A program made the position numbers and the translations under genes. Shown piece by piece: positions 43,749 to 49,636 of a DNA stretch of 64,000 nucleotides (position 1 is the stretch's first letter; each line of letters opens with the position of its first letter). Source of the stretch: Flavipsychrobacter stenotrophus (GTDB lineage Bacteria > Bacteroidota > Bacteroidia > Chitinophagales > Chitinophagaceae); contig NZ_PPSL01000003.1 in the NCBI RefSeq assembly GCF_002954265.1, positions 186,001 to 250,000 on the forward strand, given 5' to 3'. The notes beneath the pieces were generated by a model, which ran no database searches, had not been told where the DNA came from, and saw only the letters and a program-made list of their open reading frames with translations.

Positions 43749-44174
43749 CTATACAGCCATGATATACCAATCTATCCAATGGCCACTCTGGTAAAAGTTG
43801 ATCCAATTATTTGATTCAGATAATTCAAAGTATCTCTTTTCAATTATTTCTTTTCTACAGAGGCTTACCAGTATCTCCCTAAGCAGATATTGCTCACATT
43901 CCCTCATAAGGTGGGCATACATAAAGAGATTGTCCATTATCCCTTTCTTTTTCTCCAGCTGCATTAATTTTACACGCTCATATAGCTTCGCCTCATAGCC
44001 GACTAAGCTATATGAAGAGAAGTCAATGTTGGGCGCTCCTATTTTAAACTTATATCCTGAGTTCTTTAATTCTGTAATAAGCTGCTTGAACTTATAGTAG
44101 TCCTGCTTGGCAGTGGTAGTAATTATGTCGTGGTATCGAGTATTCAGCTCCTCAATTTTCGCTAGTAGGTTCAT
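43749..44174 (-). CDS. Small helical protein downstream of integrase 2, unknown family
   Basis: 141 residues, predicted mostly helical and charged (KQDYYKFKQLITELKNSGYK; GIMDNLFMYAHLMRECEQYL), no signal peptide. Its ATG lies 23 bp inside the end of the integrase gene, so the two are probably translated together. Position suggests a role in integration or a cargo function; no motif supports a specific call. Confidence 0.6.
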   Translation of the reverse strand: MNLLAKIEELNTRYHDIITTTAKQDYYKFKQLITELKNSGYKFKIGAPNIDFSSYSLVGYEAKLYERVKLMQLEKKKGIMDNLFMYAHLMRECEQYLLREILVSLCRKEIIEKRYFELSESNNWINFYQSGHWIDWYIMAV

Positions 44175-45507
44175 TTTTATTCCATTTTGCTTTTAAATCT
44201 TTGGTTAGGTTGGCCTTGTCATTGCCAATGTAAGGGGTCATCTGCTTAACAGACGTGTGGCCGGTGATGGCTTTTAATTGTTCAGGGCGCATACCCCATT
44301 GCAAGCTCAGGGAGATGAATGTTTTTCTTGCGGTGTGGGTACCAATGAAGCTATACTTGGGTTGGGTCAATTGTATGCGCTCCTTGCCGGAGTAGTTGAC
44401 CTTTGTGATAACAGTATCGATCTTAACCTCCTTGGCTATCTTCTTAATATTCCTGTTGACAATTACTGCGCACTGCCCGGCGAACACTATGTCATTATCA
44501 TTTATGTCCTTGCAGTACCTGTCTAATATTCCCTCTGCAATGTCCAGGATGGGAATATAGATAGGGTACTTCTTGTTTCCTTTCTGTTGATACAGCACCC
44601 ATTCTTTTGATGGCCCGTTTTCAATCAGTCTTATGTCCTGCTTCCTTAGGCTTAGTATGTCGCCAATCCTCTGGCCGGTATAGCACTGGAACACAAAAAT
44701 GTCTCTTGATTTTGCTTGTCCTGAACTCGATCCTTTATAACTTTCAAATTTAGCAAGCTCACTTGCATTAAGGTAGATCGGCTCTGGCTCATCCGTCTCG
44801 CATTTGAACCTCTTGTACTCATTATTGGTTACGTATTTCTTAGGGTGGATCTCTGCCCATGCAAGGAATGTCTTTATGTTTCTCAGGTTCTTGCCAATGG
44901 TATTATTCAGGTGTTTCTGTACTTCTATTGAATAAGTCCTATAGTCCAGGTAGAATTTCATAGTCATTTTTTCAAACGACAAGGCATAGTTCTTGCTCTC
45001 AAAACCTTCAAGGGACTTTCTTGTCGAGTTGTACTTGGTGATAGTCGCGCTTTTTGTTCCTTTGGCCTTCTCTTGCATGAACTCTTCAAATACTTTCCAG
45101 AAGTTGATTTTCTCTACCGGCTTTGCTTTCTCTCCAATGAATGCTCCTACCATTATCTTCTTAATCACTTTGGGAGTGATCGGGCTGTCATTGGTCAACA
45201 GTATGAGGTAGTCCCGTTCAATCTTCAATTTCGCCTTCTGCAAGAATGCATTGAACTCTAGCCTGTTCGGATATTTCCTTGATGGTTCTTGCAAGTTGAA
45301 ATCCCAATCTGCAGGCCTTATTTTCAAGCCGGTATTGATCTTTACATATACTGTGTTTACAGTACATCCGATATAGATAGAAGTAGGATTAGGGTTATAA
45401 AAACTGTCGATATTCTTGCCTGCTTTCCGTTTACGTTTTGCTGCAATTATATCAACTCCCTTTTGAAATGTTGAATCCAATAGGAAATAGAAAATTATTT
45501 TTCTCAT
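44152..45507 (-). CDS. Tyrosine recombinase (integrase) of module 2
   Basis: Start chosen at the ATG 45505-45507 (MRKIIFYFLLDSTFQKGVD), which lines up with the start of the integrase at 26-27.5 kb. An in-frame ATG at 45717 would add 70 residues. The 451-residue product has the Arm-type N-terminal domain, core-binding domain and full catalytic set: R280 (CYTGQRIGDI), K309 (YQQKGNKKYPIYIP), H391 and R394 (THTARKTF), H417 (ITGHTS), Y426 (MTPYIGN). It is collinear with the element 1 enzyme but clearly diverged. It overlaps the next gene by 23 bp. Confidence 0.92.
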   Translation of the reverse strand: MRKIIFYFLLDSTFQKGVDIIAAKRKRKAGKNIDSFYNPNPTSIYIGCTVNTVYVKINTGLKIRPADWDFNLQEPSRKYPNRLEFNAFLQKAKLKIERDYLILLTNDSPITPKVIKKIMVGAFIGEKAKPVEKINFWKVFEEFMQEKAKGTKSATITKYNSTRKSLEGFESKNYALSFEKMTMKFYLDYRTYSIEVQKHLNNTIGKNLRNIKTFLAWAEIHPKKYVTNNEYKRFKCETDEPEPIYLNASELAKFESYKGSSSGQAKSRDIFVFQCYTGQRIGDILSLRKQDIRLIENGPSKEWVLYQQKGNKKYPIYIPILDIAEGILDRYCKDINDNDIVFAGQCAVIVNRNIKKIAKEVKIDTVITKVNYSGKERIQLTQPKYSFIGTHTARKTFISLSLQWGMRPEQLKAITGHTSVKQMTPYIGNDKANLTKDLKAKWNKNEPTSEN

Positions 45508-45532
45508 TGTTTGCTGCTGAATTGTGAGGGTC

Positions 45533-45636
45533 GTTTGTCCTTCGGTATTGAGCGTTTGTCTTCCGGTATATCCACCGGTTTTTGTCTTTTGTACACCTGT
45601 TAAATCACCTGCGATTGGCGTTTGTCTTTCGGTATT
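45533..45636. repeat. Three copies of a 17-bp repeat ahead of integrase 2
   Basis: GTTTGTCTTTCGGTATT-like units at 45533-45549, 45554-45570 and 45620-45636. They lie 26-130 bp upstream of the chosen integrase start. Spacings (21 and 66) are multiples of three and the frame stays open to 45717, so they may be recombinase or regulator sites, or may code a repetitive N-terminal extension with (E/G)RQT-type units. Confidence 0.7.
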
Positions 45637-45778
45637 ATATCCCGTTTGGCGAACGTTATGAGGGGAATTAAAATTTCTAATTGCGTAGCCCATATCAAGG
45701 TCATTATTTACCCTCAATTTTAAAAATGAATTATGCTACATACTGCATAGTCTTGCAGCAGCATGTAGCATATTCATA

Positions 45779-46633
45779 TTAGGGGTTCTCTTCCGTATCG
45801 AGGGTGTTTGCCGGTAGCGGCTTCGCTTTAGGGATACCAAGGGTTTTTATTGTAACCCCTTCTGCATTCCCAGCAATTAGCATTACGCGTTCATTGCTTT
45901 TTACAAATTGGTATTTGACCAGGTACTCCCACATAAAGGTTATCAGCTGTTGGTGGTGCGTTTCATTTTTAGCGATGATGTATATTCCCGATTGGATAAC
46001 CTCGTCAACTAGCATTATAACATTTTGTCCTAAATCGGCTACCAGTTCCTTTACCCGGTCTTCATGGGTGTATTGATAGTTTGTAACCTGCTGCTGAACC
46101 ATTACAACACTATCTGCGCTTATCATCTCCAGCACCTGCTTGACCTCGCTTGATTTGATAAATGAAGACCCTTTGCCTGTCGGTAGCTTTTTGCATGATG
46201 GCATCACGCCGGTGTCCGGATCTAAGAAGATGATTTGATTAACAGTGCTGTCGATCAGTGGGGTCAACAGCTCGAAATATGCCGCCCTTTCTTTGTGGTT
46301 GAAATAGTTGATATAACCGGTGCGGAAATGACCAGCTTTTGTATTATTGCGACCGGCCGTAACCTTTGATACAATCCCCTGCGACTTAAACAATTCGCTG
46401 ATATCACTTACTGCGGTATCGTCGCCGTAAAAATTGGACTTCATTAATTCAAGCAGTTCTTCATTCTGGCTACCCAGTCTAAAATTCGTAGCGTTTCGAT
46501 CACCCTTGTTACGCGTCAATGGCTCTGTAACCATGGATACATACCATATGGGAAATTCGAAGTGCAGGGCTGTTTTTATCAGGGCATCATATTTTGTCAG
46601 GCAGGATGCATTGCCAAGAAATCTGTTATTCAT
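45779..46633 (-). CDS. Unknown protein with possible Rossmann/methyltransferase-like core (FLDPDTG)
   Basis: 284 residues, no signal peptide. The head NRFLGNASCLTKYDALIKTAL and the core IIFLDPDTGVMPSC, followed by a Gly/Lys-rich GKGSSFIKSSEV segment and SVVMVQQQ, resemble a widespread uncharacterised bacterial family with 'FLDPDNG...KH.kysEl...VVYQH'. The DPDTG stretch sits where motif IV of class I methyltransferases would be, but no SAM-binding glycine motif is obvious, so this is inference. It may be cargo of the module, for instance a defence-type gene, which cannot be decided here. A dyad lies ~90 bp upstream of its start. Confidence 0.55.
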   Translation of the reverse strand: MNNRFLGNASCLTKYDALIKTALHFEFPIWYVSMVTEPLTRNKGDRNATNFRLGSQNEELLELMKSNFYGDDTAVSDISELFKSQGIVSKVTAGRNNTKAGHFRTGYINYFNHKERAAYFELLTPLIDSTVNQIIFLDPDTGVMPSCKKLPTGKGSSFIKSSEVKQVLEMISADSVVMVQQQVTNYQYTHEDRVKELVADLGQNVIMLVDEVIQSGIYIIAKNETHHQQLITFMWEYLVKYQFVKSNERVMLIAGNAEGVTIKTLGIPKAKPLPANTLDTEENP

Positions 46634-46719
46634 TTTGTTGTTGATTTGGGGATTAATATTTGTTTGCTTTGGGTGTGCTTTGATGGCATAGCAGGAGGGG
46701 GCAAGGCTAATAAAATCAA

Positions 46720-46751
46720 AAACCGTTTGGCGGTTGGCCTACAAACGGTTT
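46720..46751. repeat. 10-bp perfect inverted repeat with 12-bp spacer
   Basis: AAACCGTTTG (46720-46729) and CAAACGGTTT (46742-46751), ~90 bp upstream of the 284-residue gene. It could be its operator. It has the same geometry as the dyad at 26116-26149. Confidence 0.65.
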
Positions 46752-46906
46752 GGTGAGAAATATAGATGGTGCCTGGGCAACATCGGCAATAATAACATTG
46801 GGTAAACATCGATATATTTTGATTGTTTCTTCTACGGTACAAAAAAAATACACGGAGCTTAACCGAACAAGTATTGGCATCCGGTGGGCTGGTTGAGGTA
46901 AATAGT

Positions 46907-47048
46907 GCCGGTTTTAAGAAGCTATTATTCTTTTGGCTAGGGACATCGGAGCGTGCTTTCGCCTTACTCAAATACCTGGAGGACAAGGAAACACCACAGA
47001 AAAGCCAAGAAGGCATATTCGGAGCTTCGTGGATATATTAAAACCGGC
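46907..47048. repeat. Long dyad with 11-bp perfect arms
   Basis: GCCGGTTTTAA (46907-46917) pairs with TTAAAACCGGC (47038-47048). Shorter complementary patches continue inside (GAAGCT/AGCTTC, TTGGCT/AGCCAA). A ~140-nt stem-loop is possible. A 72-codon plus-strand frame here (46823-47041) has no support. Confidence 0.5.
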
Positions 47049-47061
47049 TACAGAGATGGCG

Positions 47062-47087
47062 ATATAATTTCCTGCAGGAAATTATAT
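47062..47087. repeat. 26-bp perfect palindrome
   Basis: The sequence from 47062 to 47087, centred on CCTGCAGG, is its own reverse complement over all 26 bases. It is further enclosed by AACCGG (47042-47047) and CCGGTT (47093-47098). Candidate operator, resolvase or recombinase site. Confidence 0.8.
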
Positions 47088-47200
47088 ATTGTCCGGTTAA
47101 CCAAGGCTTATTATCTTTATAGCGTAACCAAACCACTCAAACTATACGGCTTCGGAAAAATAAACTACATATAAAGAGATAGCGAAATTTACTGTCCCCA

Positions 47201-47312
47201 CCTCGACAAACCACCAAAATTTTAAAAGTACCGGGAATAGTAGGATTCCGCGCCCCCAAGGGCGTGGGCTTCCTGCATTCTGGGTACAAGGGACTTGGTG
47301 GTTCCTTCGAGG
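47201..47312. ncRNA. Candidate structured RNA or structured DNA site with five nested stems
   Basis: Nested pairing by eye: CCTCGA 47201-47206 with 47307-47312; ACCACCAA 47210-47217 with 47295-47302; GTACCGGGAAT 47228-47238 with 47277-47287 (one mismatch, one G-U); AGGA 47242-47245 with 47271-47274; and a CCGCGCCC/GGGCGTGG hairpin around a CCAA loop (47248-47267). No open frame fits. It lies 220 bp before the lipoprotein gene. It may be an RNA, a leader or a recombination site; strand is unknown. Confidence 0.45.
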
Positions 47313-47322
47313 TCAGGTACAG

Positions 47323-47381
47323 AGAGGTTCCACGCTCCTTTATTTACCTAAACACACAAACAACAGCCATTCGGAACCTCT
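47323..47381. repeat. 9-bp perfect inverted repeat next to the structured element
   Basis: AGAGGTTCC (47323-47331) and GGAACCTCT (47373-47381) with a 41-nt A/C-rich loop, immediately after the nested structure. Confidence 0.55.
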
Positions 47382-47531
47382 GGCATCACCACCCACGATG
47401 AGGTATGCATGCTCATTCAAAGAGATAGTTAACCCAGCCAATAATTCCCCACCCTTCACCGGCACTCACTTCCGACAAGTGAATTTATACCCTGTATCAA
47501 ATATCTCGTAAAACCACCAAATAATAAGAAA

Positions 47532-48086
47532 ATGAAGAAAATTTCAATTCTGATAGCCACGGCCATCACACTATCCGCATGCTCTGGAAACAAAGATTCA
47601 AACGGCCAAGATAATGCTCCTGCACCACCTGAGCCAATGCAAACATCTGCACCTGCGCCAGCTACCTCCAGCAGTGACATTGTTATTTCCCATAAGGACA
47701 CCGGTAAAACTGCAAATGTTTTATTTCTGGTAAAGAACATTGTTGAGCCGCCACTCGATCGCAGCAAATCTTTTGGGCATGAAAATGCTAACAACCCGGA
47801 AGACAATGAAAAATACATTGCAGTTCAGGTGTGGGTCAAGAATGTTTCAAATAAGGAAGAAACTATAAGCCAAGATGAATTCAAGATAGTTGACCAATCA
47901 GACGCAGAGTTTGCAGAGCATTCCGGATTTACAGAACATAGGAAAAAGCCAATCCTTTTTAATGAAGCGGCAAATGGGGTAACTCTTAAACCAAACCAGT
48001 CTGCATCAGGTTGGATCACATTCACGACGGATATCAAAGCCAAAGCCAAGAAGATTGTTTATTCAAACGTAACTGTAAACCTCTAA
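47532..48086 (+). CDS. DUF4352-like lipoprotein
   Basis: 184 residues. A lipoprotein signal ends LSAC (Cys17) and is followed by a Pro/Ala/Ser-rich linker (~25-50). The C-terminal domain has KYIAVQVWVKNVSNKEETIS, FKIVDQSDAEF and PNQSASGWITFTTD, the strand pattern of the DUF4352 immunoglobulin-like family found on bacterial lipoproteins. It is likely lipid-anchored and exposed to the periplasm or surface; the binding partner is unknown. It is 11 bp before the MORN-like gene and probably forms an operon with it. Confidence 0.8.
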   Translation: MKKISILIATAITLSACSGNKDSNGQDNAPAPPEPMQTSAPAPATSSSDIVISHKDTGKTANVLFLVKNIVEPPLDRSKSFGHENANNPEDNEKYIAVQVWVKNVSNKEETISQDEFKIVDQSDAEFAEHSGFTEHRKKPILFNEAANGVTLKPNQSASGWITFTTDIKAKAKKIVYSNVTVNL

Positions 48087-48097
48087 AAATTAATTCA

Positions 48098-49636
48098 ATG
48101 AAGAAGTTCTTATTTATAGTGGCTATTGTAGCCACCGGCCATAGTATTGGCTATAGCCAGCAGCACATTACAACATATTACGACCCATACAAGAAGTTTA
48201 AAGAAGAGGATTATTTTCTGGATAATAATGCGCAGATGCACGGGAAATATACCTCCTATTTTAGGGATGGTTCATTCAAACTTGTCTTAACTTATATACA
48301 TGGCAAAGTCAATGGTAAGGGTATCACCTATTACTTCGATGGCGGATCAAGGGGGATTGCGTCAATAGCCAACTATAAAGATGATGAACAAGATGGCCTA
48401 CAACAATATTATTTTGATAATGCTCCAGAGCCATCGGTGGAGGGTCATAAACCGTATGTGGTTGTAGAAGAATTATATCAAGGTGGAAGTATTACGTGGC
48501 GGAAAATGTATGATTTTGAAAATGGCAAACGGTTTCTAGCTAAACACGAGTTAATTGCCCAAGGTATAACAAAAGGGTATCTACCCAATGGCCACCAATA
48601 CTACCAAATTGCCGTAGATGGGGTAAACTTCCAGGATGGAAGTAGTAACACCAACAAAATTTGGTTTATGGCTAAGGACGGGAAGAAAAATGGTTTATAC
48701 AAGGAATGGTTTAGAAATGGTCAGATAGCGGATTCCTGTTACTACCTGAATGATTTACAAGAAGGCGTTGAAACGGGTTGGTATGATAATGGCGGGAAGA
48801 GATTGCGTTGTAGCTATGTCGGCGGGAAGAAAAGTGGAATTGAAACAGCTTGGCATATTAATGGGGCATTAGAATTCTCGGCAAATTATACCAATGGGAA
48901 AATTCAGGGGAGAGTTGATGTCTTGGATCCTAGCGGTGTTTTAATAAGTTCCGAAAACTATATCGAAGGCGATCGACAGTTATCGAACAGTGATGTCCAC
49001 AGAAGTATCGACCTCATTAGAAACAGTGACTATTCTCGAGCTAATAAGATGTTGGCTCTAGTGGAAAATGCCGGTATTCTAGGATATGATTCTGCAGTAG
49101 TGGCACTTGGTCTGTTCATGGACTACTATATAATTGACCATTTTGGCTATTCGGAAAACCTCATATTCTGGATAATGGCTCATCACCCTACGAAGCTAAC
49201 TGCTAATGACTATATCAAGTATAGCAACTATCTTAAACGAAACGACAAATATGACCCAAGTTCAGTGCTAGATTCTGCAATCAAGAATGTCCCAGACGAC
49301 CCGCGAATCCAGTTCCTATATGCTCATAACCGTCACGCATTTAGCATTGCAAACAGATATAACGACGACTCGTACAAATTTTATGAAATATGGATGTCTC
49401 ATTTAGATAATGGAGATGAAAAAGTTGGGCTATTGGAAGCTAAGGGTGTGATTATGGTACACGACTTTAATTTGCTGAAAAATACAAATTGCAACACCGA
49501 AGAGTCAAAACGTGCAACTCAAAAAATAAAAAGTGATCTCCAACCCTTTAATAAACTAAATGTTTATACGGATGATATCATAAAGATTATAAAGGACTAC
49601 GAAGATGGCTGCAAGTTTGAAATAGCACCCCGGTAA
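48098..49636 (+). CDS. Secreted MORN-variant (YwqK-like) repeat protein
   Basis: Start chosen at the ATG 48098, 11 bp after the lipoprotein stop, because it gives a signal peptide (MKKFLFIVAIVATGHSIGYSQ); the longer open frame would overlap the lipoprotein gene. The first ~300 residues contain about six MORN-variant units of the form 'GxYxxWFxNGQIxxxxYYxxGxxxG' (GKYTSYFRDGSFKLVLTY; GLYKEWFRNGQIADSCYY; GVETGWYDNGGKRLRC; GIETAWHINGALEFSANY). The remaining ~200 residues are helical, without a recognised family. Such proteins are often called YwqK-type antitoxins, but with a signal peptide and no toxin neighbour here, that role is doubtful. Confidence 0.8.
   Translation: MKKFLFIVAIVATGHSIGYSQQHITTYYDPYKKFKEEDYFLDNNAQMHGKYTSYFRDGSFKLVLTYIHGKVNGKGITYYFDGGSRGIASIANYKDDEQDGLQQYYFDNAPEPSVEGHKPYVVVEELYQGGSITWRKMYDFENGKRFLAKHELIAQGITKGYLPNGHQYYQIAVDGVNFQDGSSNTNKIWFMAKDGKKNGLYKEWFRNGQIADSCYYLNDLQEGVETGWYDNGGKRLRCSYVGGKKSGIETAWHINGALEFSANYTNGKIQGRVDVLDPSGVLISSENYIEGDRQLSNSDVHRSIDLIRNSDYSRANKMLALVENAGILGYDSAVVALGLFMDYYIIDHFGYSENLIFWIMAHHPTKLTANDYIKYSNYLKRNDKYDPSSVLDSAIKNVPDDPRIQFLYAHNRHAFSIANRYNDDSYKFYEIWMSHLDNGDEKVGLLEAKGVIMVHDFNLLKNTNCNTEESKRATQKIKSDLQPFNKLNVYTDDIIKIIKDYEDGCKFEIAPR

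Follow-up and report, generated by a model that had tools for sequence, protein, structure and literature searches.

Sequence comparison makes it close to certain that an element in the window, by which we mean the whole 64,000-nt stretch of Flavipsychrobacter stenotrophus DNA analysed here, represents a conserved plus-strand RNA. On balance, the comparison of its copies favours the reading that the element belongs to a family of structured 5' leader RNAs, about 190 nt long and uncatalogued, in the Bacteroidota, which would act as a switch. Placed at the head of many operons for accessory and surface proteins throughout the phylum, these RNAs probably govern expression of the operons.

The MFE fold of 47201-47312 on the plus strand has an energy of -61.1 kcal/mol, whereas dinucleotide shuffles average -33.3 kcal/mol (sd 3.7; z -7.56) and none of 200 does as well, so that the fold withstands the comparison with shuffled sequence. 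The minus strand of the same interval is weaker (-50.0 kcal/mol, z -5.3), and of 31 homologous rods, 30 are more stable as the plus strand. A preliminary description of the region had proposed nested stems with most bases paired over 112 nt, including a GC-rich hairpin with a CCAA loop. The MFE fold confirms both, and resolves the hairpin into a 9-bp stem (47247-47255/47260-47268) closed by the loop at 47256-47259. The same description took 47201-47312 as the whole element; the element is real, but these limits are too short, because an identity of 95.4% with a congener (G004) spans 47171-47342 and then drops on either side, to 79.5% in the downstream coding sequence and 71.0% just upstream. 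The interval is the core of a larger unit at about 47176-47350, where covariance model R2 matches over its full length (positions 1-174 of 174; 117.7 bits, E 3.8e-20), although the window sequence itself helped to build R2. The features of the unit and its surroundings are as follows.

47176-47350, plus strand: whole conserved RNA unit, with 5' leader strand, long interrupted rod and CCACGC tail (model R2 match)
47200-47313, plus strand: rod, made of outer stem, stem 2, stem 3 and inner stem (MFE fold and pairing in 78 sequences)
About 47200-47206/47307-47313, plus strand: outer stem, 6 bp within 47201-47312 (MFE fold)
About 47209-47217/47295-47303, plus strand: stem 2, 9 bp (MFE fold), with 47210-47216/47296-47302 as its part in the rod defined over 78 sequences
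Within the rod, plus strand: the other stems, namely a weak 3-bp stem, stem 3 (GUACC/GGUAC) and two inner stems (MFE fold)
47247-47268, plus strand: GC-rich hairpin at the apex, closed by a CCAA loop, with GCGUGG in its 3' strand and a wobble in the stem (MFE fold and 78 sequences)
47196-47198, plus strand: leader strand CCC, which can pair with the GGG of a rod bulge (helix 27-32 x 83-86 of alignment A7)
47233-47235, plus strand: bulge GGG, partner of the leader strand CCC (same helix of A7)
47330-47335, plus strand: tail CCACGC, complement of the apical GCGUGG, followed by TCCTTTATTT (pairing in 78 sequences; T-rich tract of the family)
47323-47381, plus strand: P2 hairpin, AGAGGTTCC at 47323-47331 pairing with GGAACCTCT at 47373-47381, the loop opening with the remaining CACGC of the tail (helix score)
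47112-47119, plus strand: weak promoter-like candidate TATCTTTA, one base off TAnnTTTG and shared with the congener
47532-48086, plus strand: downstream gene for a lipoprotein-like DUF4352 protein of 184 aa (ORF; Pfam PF11611, E 1.3e-9)
48101-49636, plus strand: second downstream gene, exported-looking product with a weak MORN_2 match (ORF; PF07661, E 2.4e-4, below the curated cut-off)
44152-45717, minus strand: tyrosine recombinase (Pfam Phage_int_SAM_5, 2.9e-10; Phage_integrase, 5e-10; Arm-DNA-bind_5, 3.1e-7)

Two further sequence features lie near the RNA. At 47062-47087 there is a perfect 26-bp palindrome (arms ATATAATTTCCTG/CAGGAAATTATAT), at which the homology with the congener starts (47081) and which is a possible boundary of a mobile insertion. 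Just before the start codon of the lipoprotein gene, 47505-47521 is a near-copy (15 of 17 positions) of the 5' strand of the rod at 47202-47218. Near-copies of the rod 5' strand with a score of at least 12 were found 11 times in 77 loci against 4.8 expected, one of the 11 (L081) being an artefact of a short locus and an offset error; the strong cases (L047, L038, L017, the window and L055) all belong to a window-like subgroup. The 17-nt near-copy had suggested a design with a guide target or strand exchange, which was set aside; the excess over loci is small.

Covariation was assessed in 78 loci, over which R2 gave exactly 78 matches at E <= 1e-4; 31 of them, the window included, had contributed to R2. 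In an early set of seven sequences, 18 of 36 predicted pairs had already shown a double change. The 35 pairs tested in the larger set comprise the outer stem, stem 2, the inner stem, the apical stem, a 5' hairpin and the leader:bulge helix. Alignment A7 was fitted to R2, so that its counts for nested pairs lean towards the R2 structure; read in this light, 90.9% of 2703 cells are paired, compared with 74.5% in shuffled alignments and 34.8-42.2% when the strands are slid. Both sides changed in 28 of the 35 pairs (466 cells), and the covariation score of 0.512 exceeds that of all 500 shuffles (0.198 ± 0.006) and of the slid versions (0.078-0.117). The prediction of a structured element is thus upheld among homologues. 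The outer stem and stem 2 are paired in 97.5% and 92.4% of cells, respectively, with double changes in every pair, and the apical stem in 89.6%. Three helices lay outside R2, namely leader:bulge, tail and P2; of these, the leader:bulge helix is paired in 88.1% of cells, with double changes in all four of its pairs. A candidate closing stem P0 (columns 17-21 x 194-198; 63.9% paired) and a candidate hairpin on the 3' side (162-164 x 173-175; 78.1%) are not relied on here. An intrinsic terminator or a simple palindrome was rejected as an account of the element, given six or more conserved helices, non-nested ones included.

At the DNA level only one copy of the element was found in its own genome, and two further, diverged copies were detected by the covariance model only; a genomic repeat or MITE was rejected on these grounds. 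The third copy in the genome, a diverged one at G000:C4:23550-23724, lies 82 nt past the end of an ORF reading as a tyrosine recombinase and is followed by an exported-looking protein. The copy of the congener is 96% identical over 136 bases, and a search of 294 genomes of the family followed by realignment added five genomes with clear relatives. R1, a covariance model built on the rod, matched 63 of the 294 family genomes and 39 of 101 genera at E <= 0.01, the weakest of these matches being possibly due to chance. With R2 at E <= 0.001, matches were obtained in 112 of 396 genomes of the order and 68 of 395 of the phylum, the family, order and phylum sets overlapping; these counts are more likely low than high, because few candidates per genome were scored and the filters were strict. 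E-values of the covariance models reach 7e-23, and a strict DNA pattern recovered at least 120 stretches in named genomes. Among the 80 matches listed, most are from Flavobacterium, Chryseobacterium and other Flavobacteriia, and others are from Pedobacter, Mucilaginibacter, Chitinophagaceae and Dysgonomonas. The copies are dispersed, with up to seven per genome, and the match positions revealed no arrays in the genomes searched. A phage or plasmid feature was rejected as well, phage and plasmid collections yielding no match and viral contigs a single one. That copy (L263, 4473-4562), whose 42-kb viral contig also carries an integrase close by, is followed by no co-directional ORF of 100 aa or more in the next 1.2 kb or so, which makes it an exception to the leader arrangement described below.

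The sigma-A -7 box of Flavobacterium psychrophilum has the consensus TAnnTTTG in the account of PMC9723704. This motif occurs between -110 and +8 at 51 of the 78 loci, compared with 6.4 ± 2.5 in shuffled sequence (maximum 14 in 200) and 8 on the opposite strand, and most occurrences cluster at -19 to -32 and -42 to -63. It is found upstream of the RNA in 16 of 34 close and 30 of 37 distant loci, and between the RNA and the ATG in none of the close and one of the distant ones (1 of 71 in total). In 74 of 76 loci the closest ORF downstream points the same way as the RNA, with the first co-directional ATG at most 54 nt from the model end in 31 of the 76; upstream, the closest ORF is divergent in 56 of the 76, most often at a distance of 100-160 nt. 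Since a co-directional ORF follows, and the -7 box stands before the RNA and hardly ever behind it, the RNA very probably begins the transcript of the downstream gene. A cis leader is the likely assignment from this arrangement, and the earlier suggestion of a leader of the lipoprotein operon gains support from orientation, distance and promoter position across loci, the DUF4352 gene starting at 47532. Two points count against a leader switch: the 110 nt before the window copy contain no exact TAnnTTTG, and the copy on the viral contig lacks a close co-directional ORF.

The same motif, together with the T-rich tract and the extreme structure, could also belong to a stand-alone, trans-acting sRNA with its own promoter that ends at the T-rich tract, the downstream gene being a neighbour or reached by incidental read-through. 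Several dispersed copies per genome followed by unrelated genes would suit such an sRNA, and Rfp18 of F. psychrophilum, likened here by its description in PMC9723704, offers a precedent. However, a trans-acting sRNA needs neither the co-directional gene, often within 54 nt, nor the nearly motif-free gap between RNA and gene, and we regard this alternative as unlikely while leaving it some weight.

The genes that follow the RNA are diverse. Among 74 downstream ORFs scanned from the 78 loci, Pfam identified a TonB receptor plug in 21, DNA methylases matching type III models in three, sigma factors in two and DUF4352 in two, and the families listed share no pathway; this lack of a common pathway, unlike the situation in classical metabolite riboswitches, is a further point against a leader switch. 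Upstream, a small divergent ORF lies within 200 nt in 53 of 80 loci (in named genomes, among the matches listed). HTH_3 was found in 37 of these 53 divergent ORFs. It matches at most one of 60 control ORFs, sampled from 117 at these loci, since it is absent from the 25 families listed out of 30 for the controls. In a less biased set, 18 of 54 ORFs in divergent orientation have it.

Loci closest to the window have a mobile context. Tyrosine recombinases lie near the copies in the window (by Pfam) and at L063, L064, L074 and L255 (by reading), five loci have tRNA genes upstream on the same strand, and IS1595-type transposases occur in several loci by ORF reading (2 of 54 by Pfam). In the window, 45779-46633 encodes a 284-aa protein without a significant Pfam family, of which a homologue stands beside a homologous tyrosine recombinase near the L063 copy (by reading); the protein and the recombinase may travel together. 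Near the copy of the congener (L015, 2763-5198), two genes that read as CD-NTase-like, together with one for a membrane protein that reads as SLATT-like, give the look of a defence island.

Recombinases near several copies and tRNA genes upstream of others bring to mind a recombination or transposition site acting as folded single-stranded DNA, either attC-like or a mobile-element end, and the preliminary description had also considered a recombination site folding in this way; stem 2, almost free of G-U pairs (2 of 546 cells), would agree with a DNA fold. Yet G-U pairs are many in the apical and tail helices (95 and 49 cells), the plus strand is nearly always the stabler one, the promoter motif in front and the T-tract fit a transcript, the copies are few and dispersed, without arrays, and the downstream ORF is almost invariably co-directional. 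A single-stranded DNA site is therefore disfavoured, and we hold it to be very improbable.

The tail CCACGC and the apical GCGUGG are complementary in 98.7% of 468 cells (78 sequences), more than the 89.6% reached by the apical stem; double changes affect four of the six pairs, but only four cells. At one pair the apical stem has a U-G wobble in 53 of 78 sequences, where the tail pairing puts G-C in 59 of 78. Beyond the tail, the T fraction averaged by position is 0.68-0.83 at positions 3-7 past CACGC, compared with a background of 0.31 (72 of 78 loci with the motif), the tract being weak in the window copy (TCCTTTATTT). A P2 helix with a score of at least 6 is present in 37 of 78 loci against 12.7 expected from shuffles, and one with a score of at least 8 in seven against 0.7; the window scores 9. 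The P2 partners co-vary, as in AGGTTCC/GGAACCT, GTCCC/GGGAC and TGAAAC/GTTTCA.

A leader switch is proposed because the conserved tail pairing competes with the apical hairpin and precedes the T-rich tract. Transcription would start at a sigma-A promoter just upstream and yield a long rod, its interior cross-linked by the leader strand:bulge, tail:apical strand and P2 pairings, before continuing into the downstream gene. The rod with its apical hairpin would most likely be the read-through state, and the GCGUGG:CCACGC pairing directly before the T-rich tract would be a terminator-like or otherwise repressive one. The balance might be tipped by a ligand, by a protein such as the often-adjacent HTH regulator, or by the speed of transcription, and the window copy would in this way control the DUF4352 lipoprotein gene and the next gene. 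That the alternation of apical and tail pairing is a regulatory switch, perhaps by attenuation, has close to an even chance in our estimation. Termination is not energetically obvious: about 60 nt are looped out by the terminator-like helix, which would have to form at the expense of a rod that is itself very stable. Alternatively, the tail pairing could represent a contact within the tertiary structure or one between two molecules.

Processive antitermination leaders are exemplified by the put RNA of phage HK022 and EAR of Bacillus, and a leader of this type, or one protecting the transcript, might assist the polymerase, or the mRNA itself, along horizontally acquired operons without any signal. 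By analogy, it would account for accessory, functionally unrelated genes downstream, for an RNA at the very 5' end and for a structure kept while its targets differ; on the other hand, some of the units downstream seem to consist of one short gene, and it leaves unexplained the competing pairing and T-tract, which suggest a switch. We consider it rather improbable, less so than a DNA site and more so than a trans-acting sRNA.

One group of loci raised a more specific function. At L155 the RNA is immediately followed by a sigma-like gene and by a gene whose product matches PDB 9n9c, "Nuclease-deactivated Cas12f", from one end to the other (E 8e-162). This structure we take to be of the dCas12f-sigmaE RNA-guided transcription system. 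At L155 (relative positions 229-2140), and likewise at L172, the sigma-like and dCas12f genes lie right behind the RNA and a divergent HTH gene precedes it, and coordinates indicate linkage of RNA and dCas12f in G685, G693 and G911 too. The RNA could then be the guide-RNA scaffold of this system, for which its place at the head of the L155 operon, the linkage in these genomes and the frequency of SusC-type receptors among downstream genes might speak. However, a dCas12f homologue is present in only six of 64 RNA-bearing genomes, linked to the RNA in three and unlinked in three, and none was found in this genome. Because 58 of the 64 genomes are without a homologue, the RNA is not a dCas12f guide in general; as a general function the scaffold is largely refuted, and we give it almost no weight.

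Returning to the leader switch, large, intricate bacterial RNAs common to a whole phylum are rare and usually have a defined biochemical job. The copies compared here might, as a tentative proposal with somewhat less than even odds, represent a phylum-wide new class of RNA switch with a compact fold formed through long-range pairings, unrelated accessory genes under one signal and a divergent HTH partner. If so, surface receptors, exported proteins, restriction methylases, sigma/dCas12f operons and the cargo of integrative elements would all come under it. Because the RNA precedes SusC-type receptors, exported proteins, methylases and RNA-guided transcription operons, one signal may control both the display of surface proteins and the use of mobile cargo.

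Among catalogued RNAs, none of the 4227 models of Rfam 15 matched the 64-kb window at gathering thresholds, a search of 46600-47600 gave matches at chance level only, and at permissive E-values 40 homologous loci gave only tRNAs and plastid UTR models overlapping those tRNAs. A known Rfam family was thus rejected, and with covariation across the phylum the earlier suggestion of an unannotated structured RNA is borne out. We recognised no paper describing the family in the open-licence PMC literature, an earlier description elsewhere being possible.

Several known systems invite comparison. Integron attC sites are long imperfect inverted repeats used by tyrosine recombinases in cassette arrays, and the RNA resembles them in this form and, at some loci, in having tyrosine recombinases nearby; it differs in the lack of arrays, the promoter motif in front, the co-directional downstream gene and the plus-strand bias with G-U pairs. 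With the dCas12f-sigmaE system it shares the phylum, some operons that it leads and many SusC-type genes, whereas most RNA-bearing genomes, as noted above, lack dCas12f. HMP2_1032, as described in PMC8040213, is a palindromic candidate RNA of 106 bp that lies near TonB in Bacteroidetes; by that description alone, phylum, palindromic form and proximity to TonB are common to both, the difference being that HMP2_1032 is itself predicted there as a Rho-independent terminator. Rfp18, a strongly folded RNA of the same phylum that is conserved in its genus, is likewise comparable by description in its strong structure, but it is trans-acting and, as PMC9723704 presents it, without a tie to a downstream gene. 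The closest likeness in arrangement is to riboswitches and attenuators, with which the RNA shares a structured 5' leader, an upstream promoter motif, a gene in cis, competing conserved pairings and a T-rich tract; it differs in the absence of an Rfam match, in a terminator-like helix with a very long loop and in the absence of a shared downstream pathway, the 74 downstream ORFs not being tied to one metabolite as those of a metabolite riboswitch are. By its sequence features, the RNA would be a new family of a known kind, the structured leader RNA, but unusual in how widely it occurs and in the genes around it.
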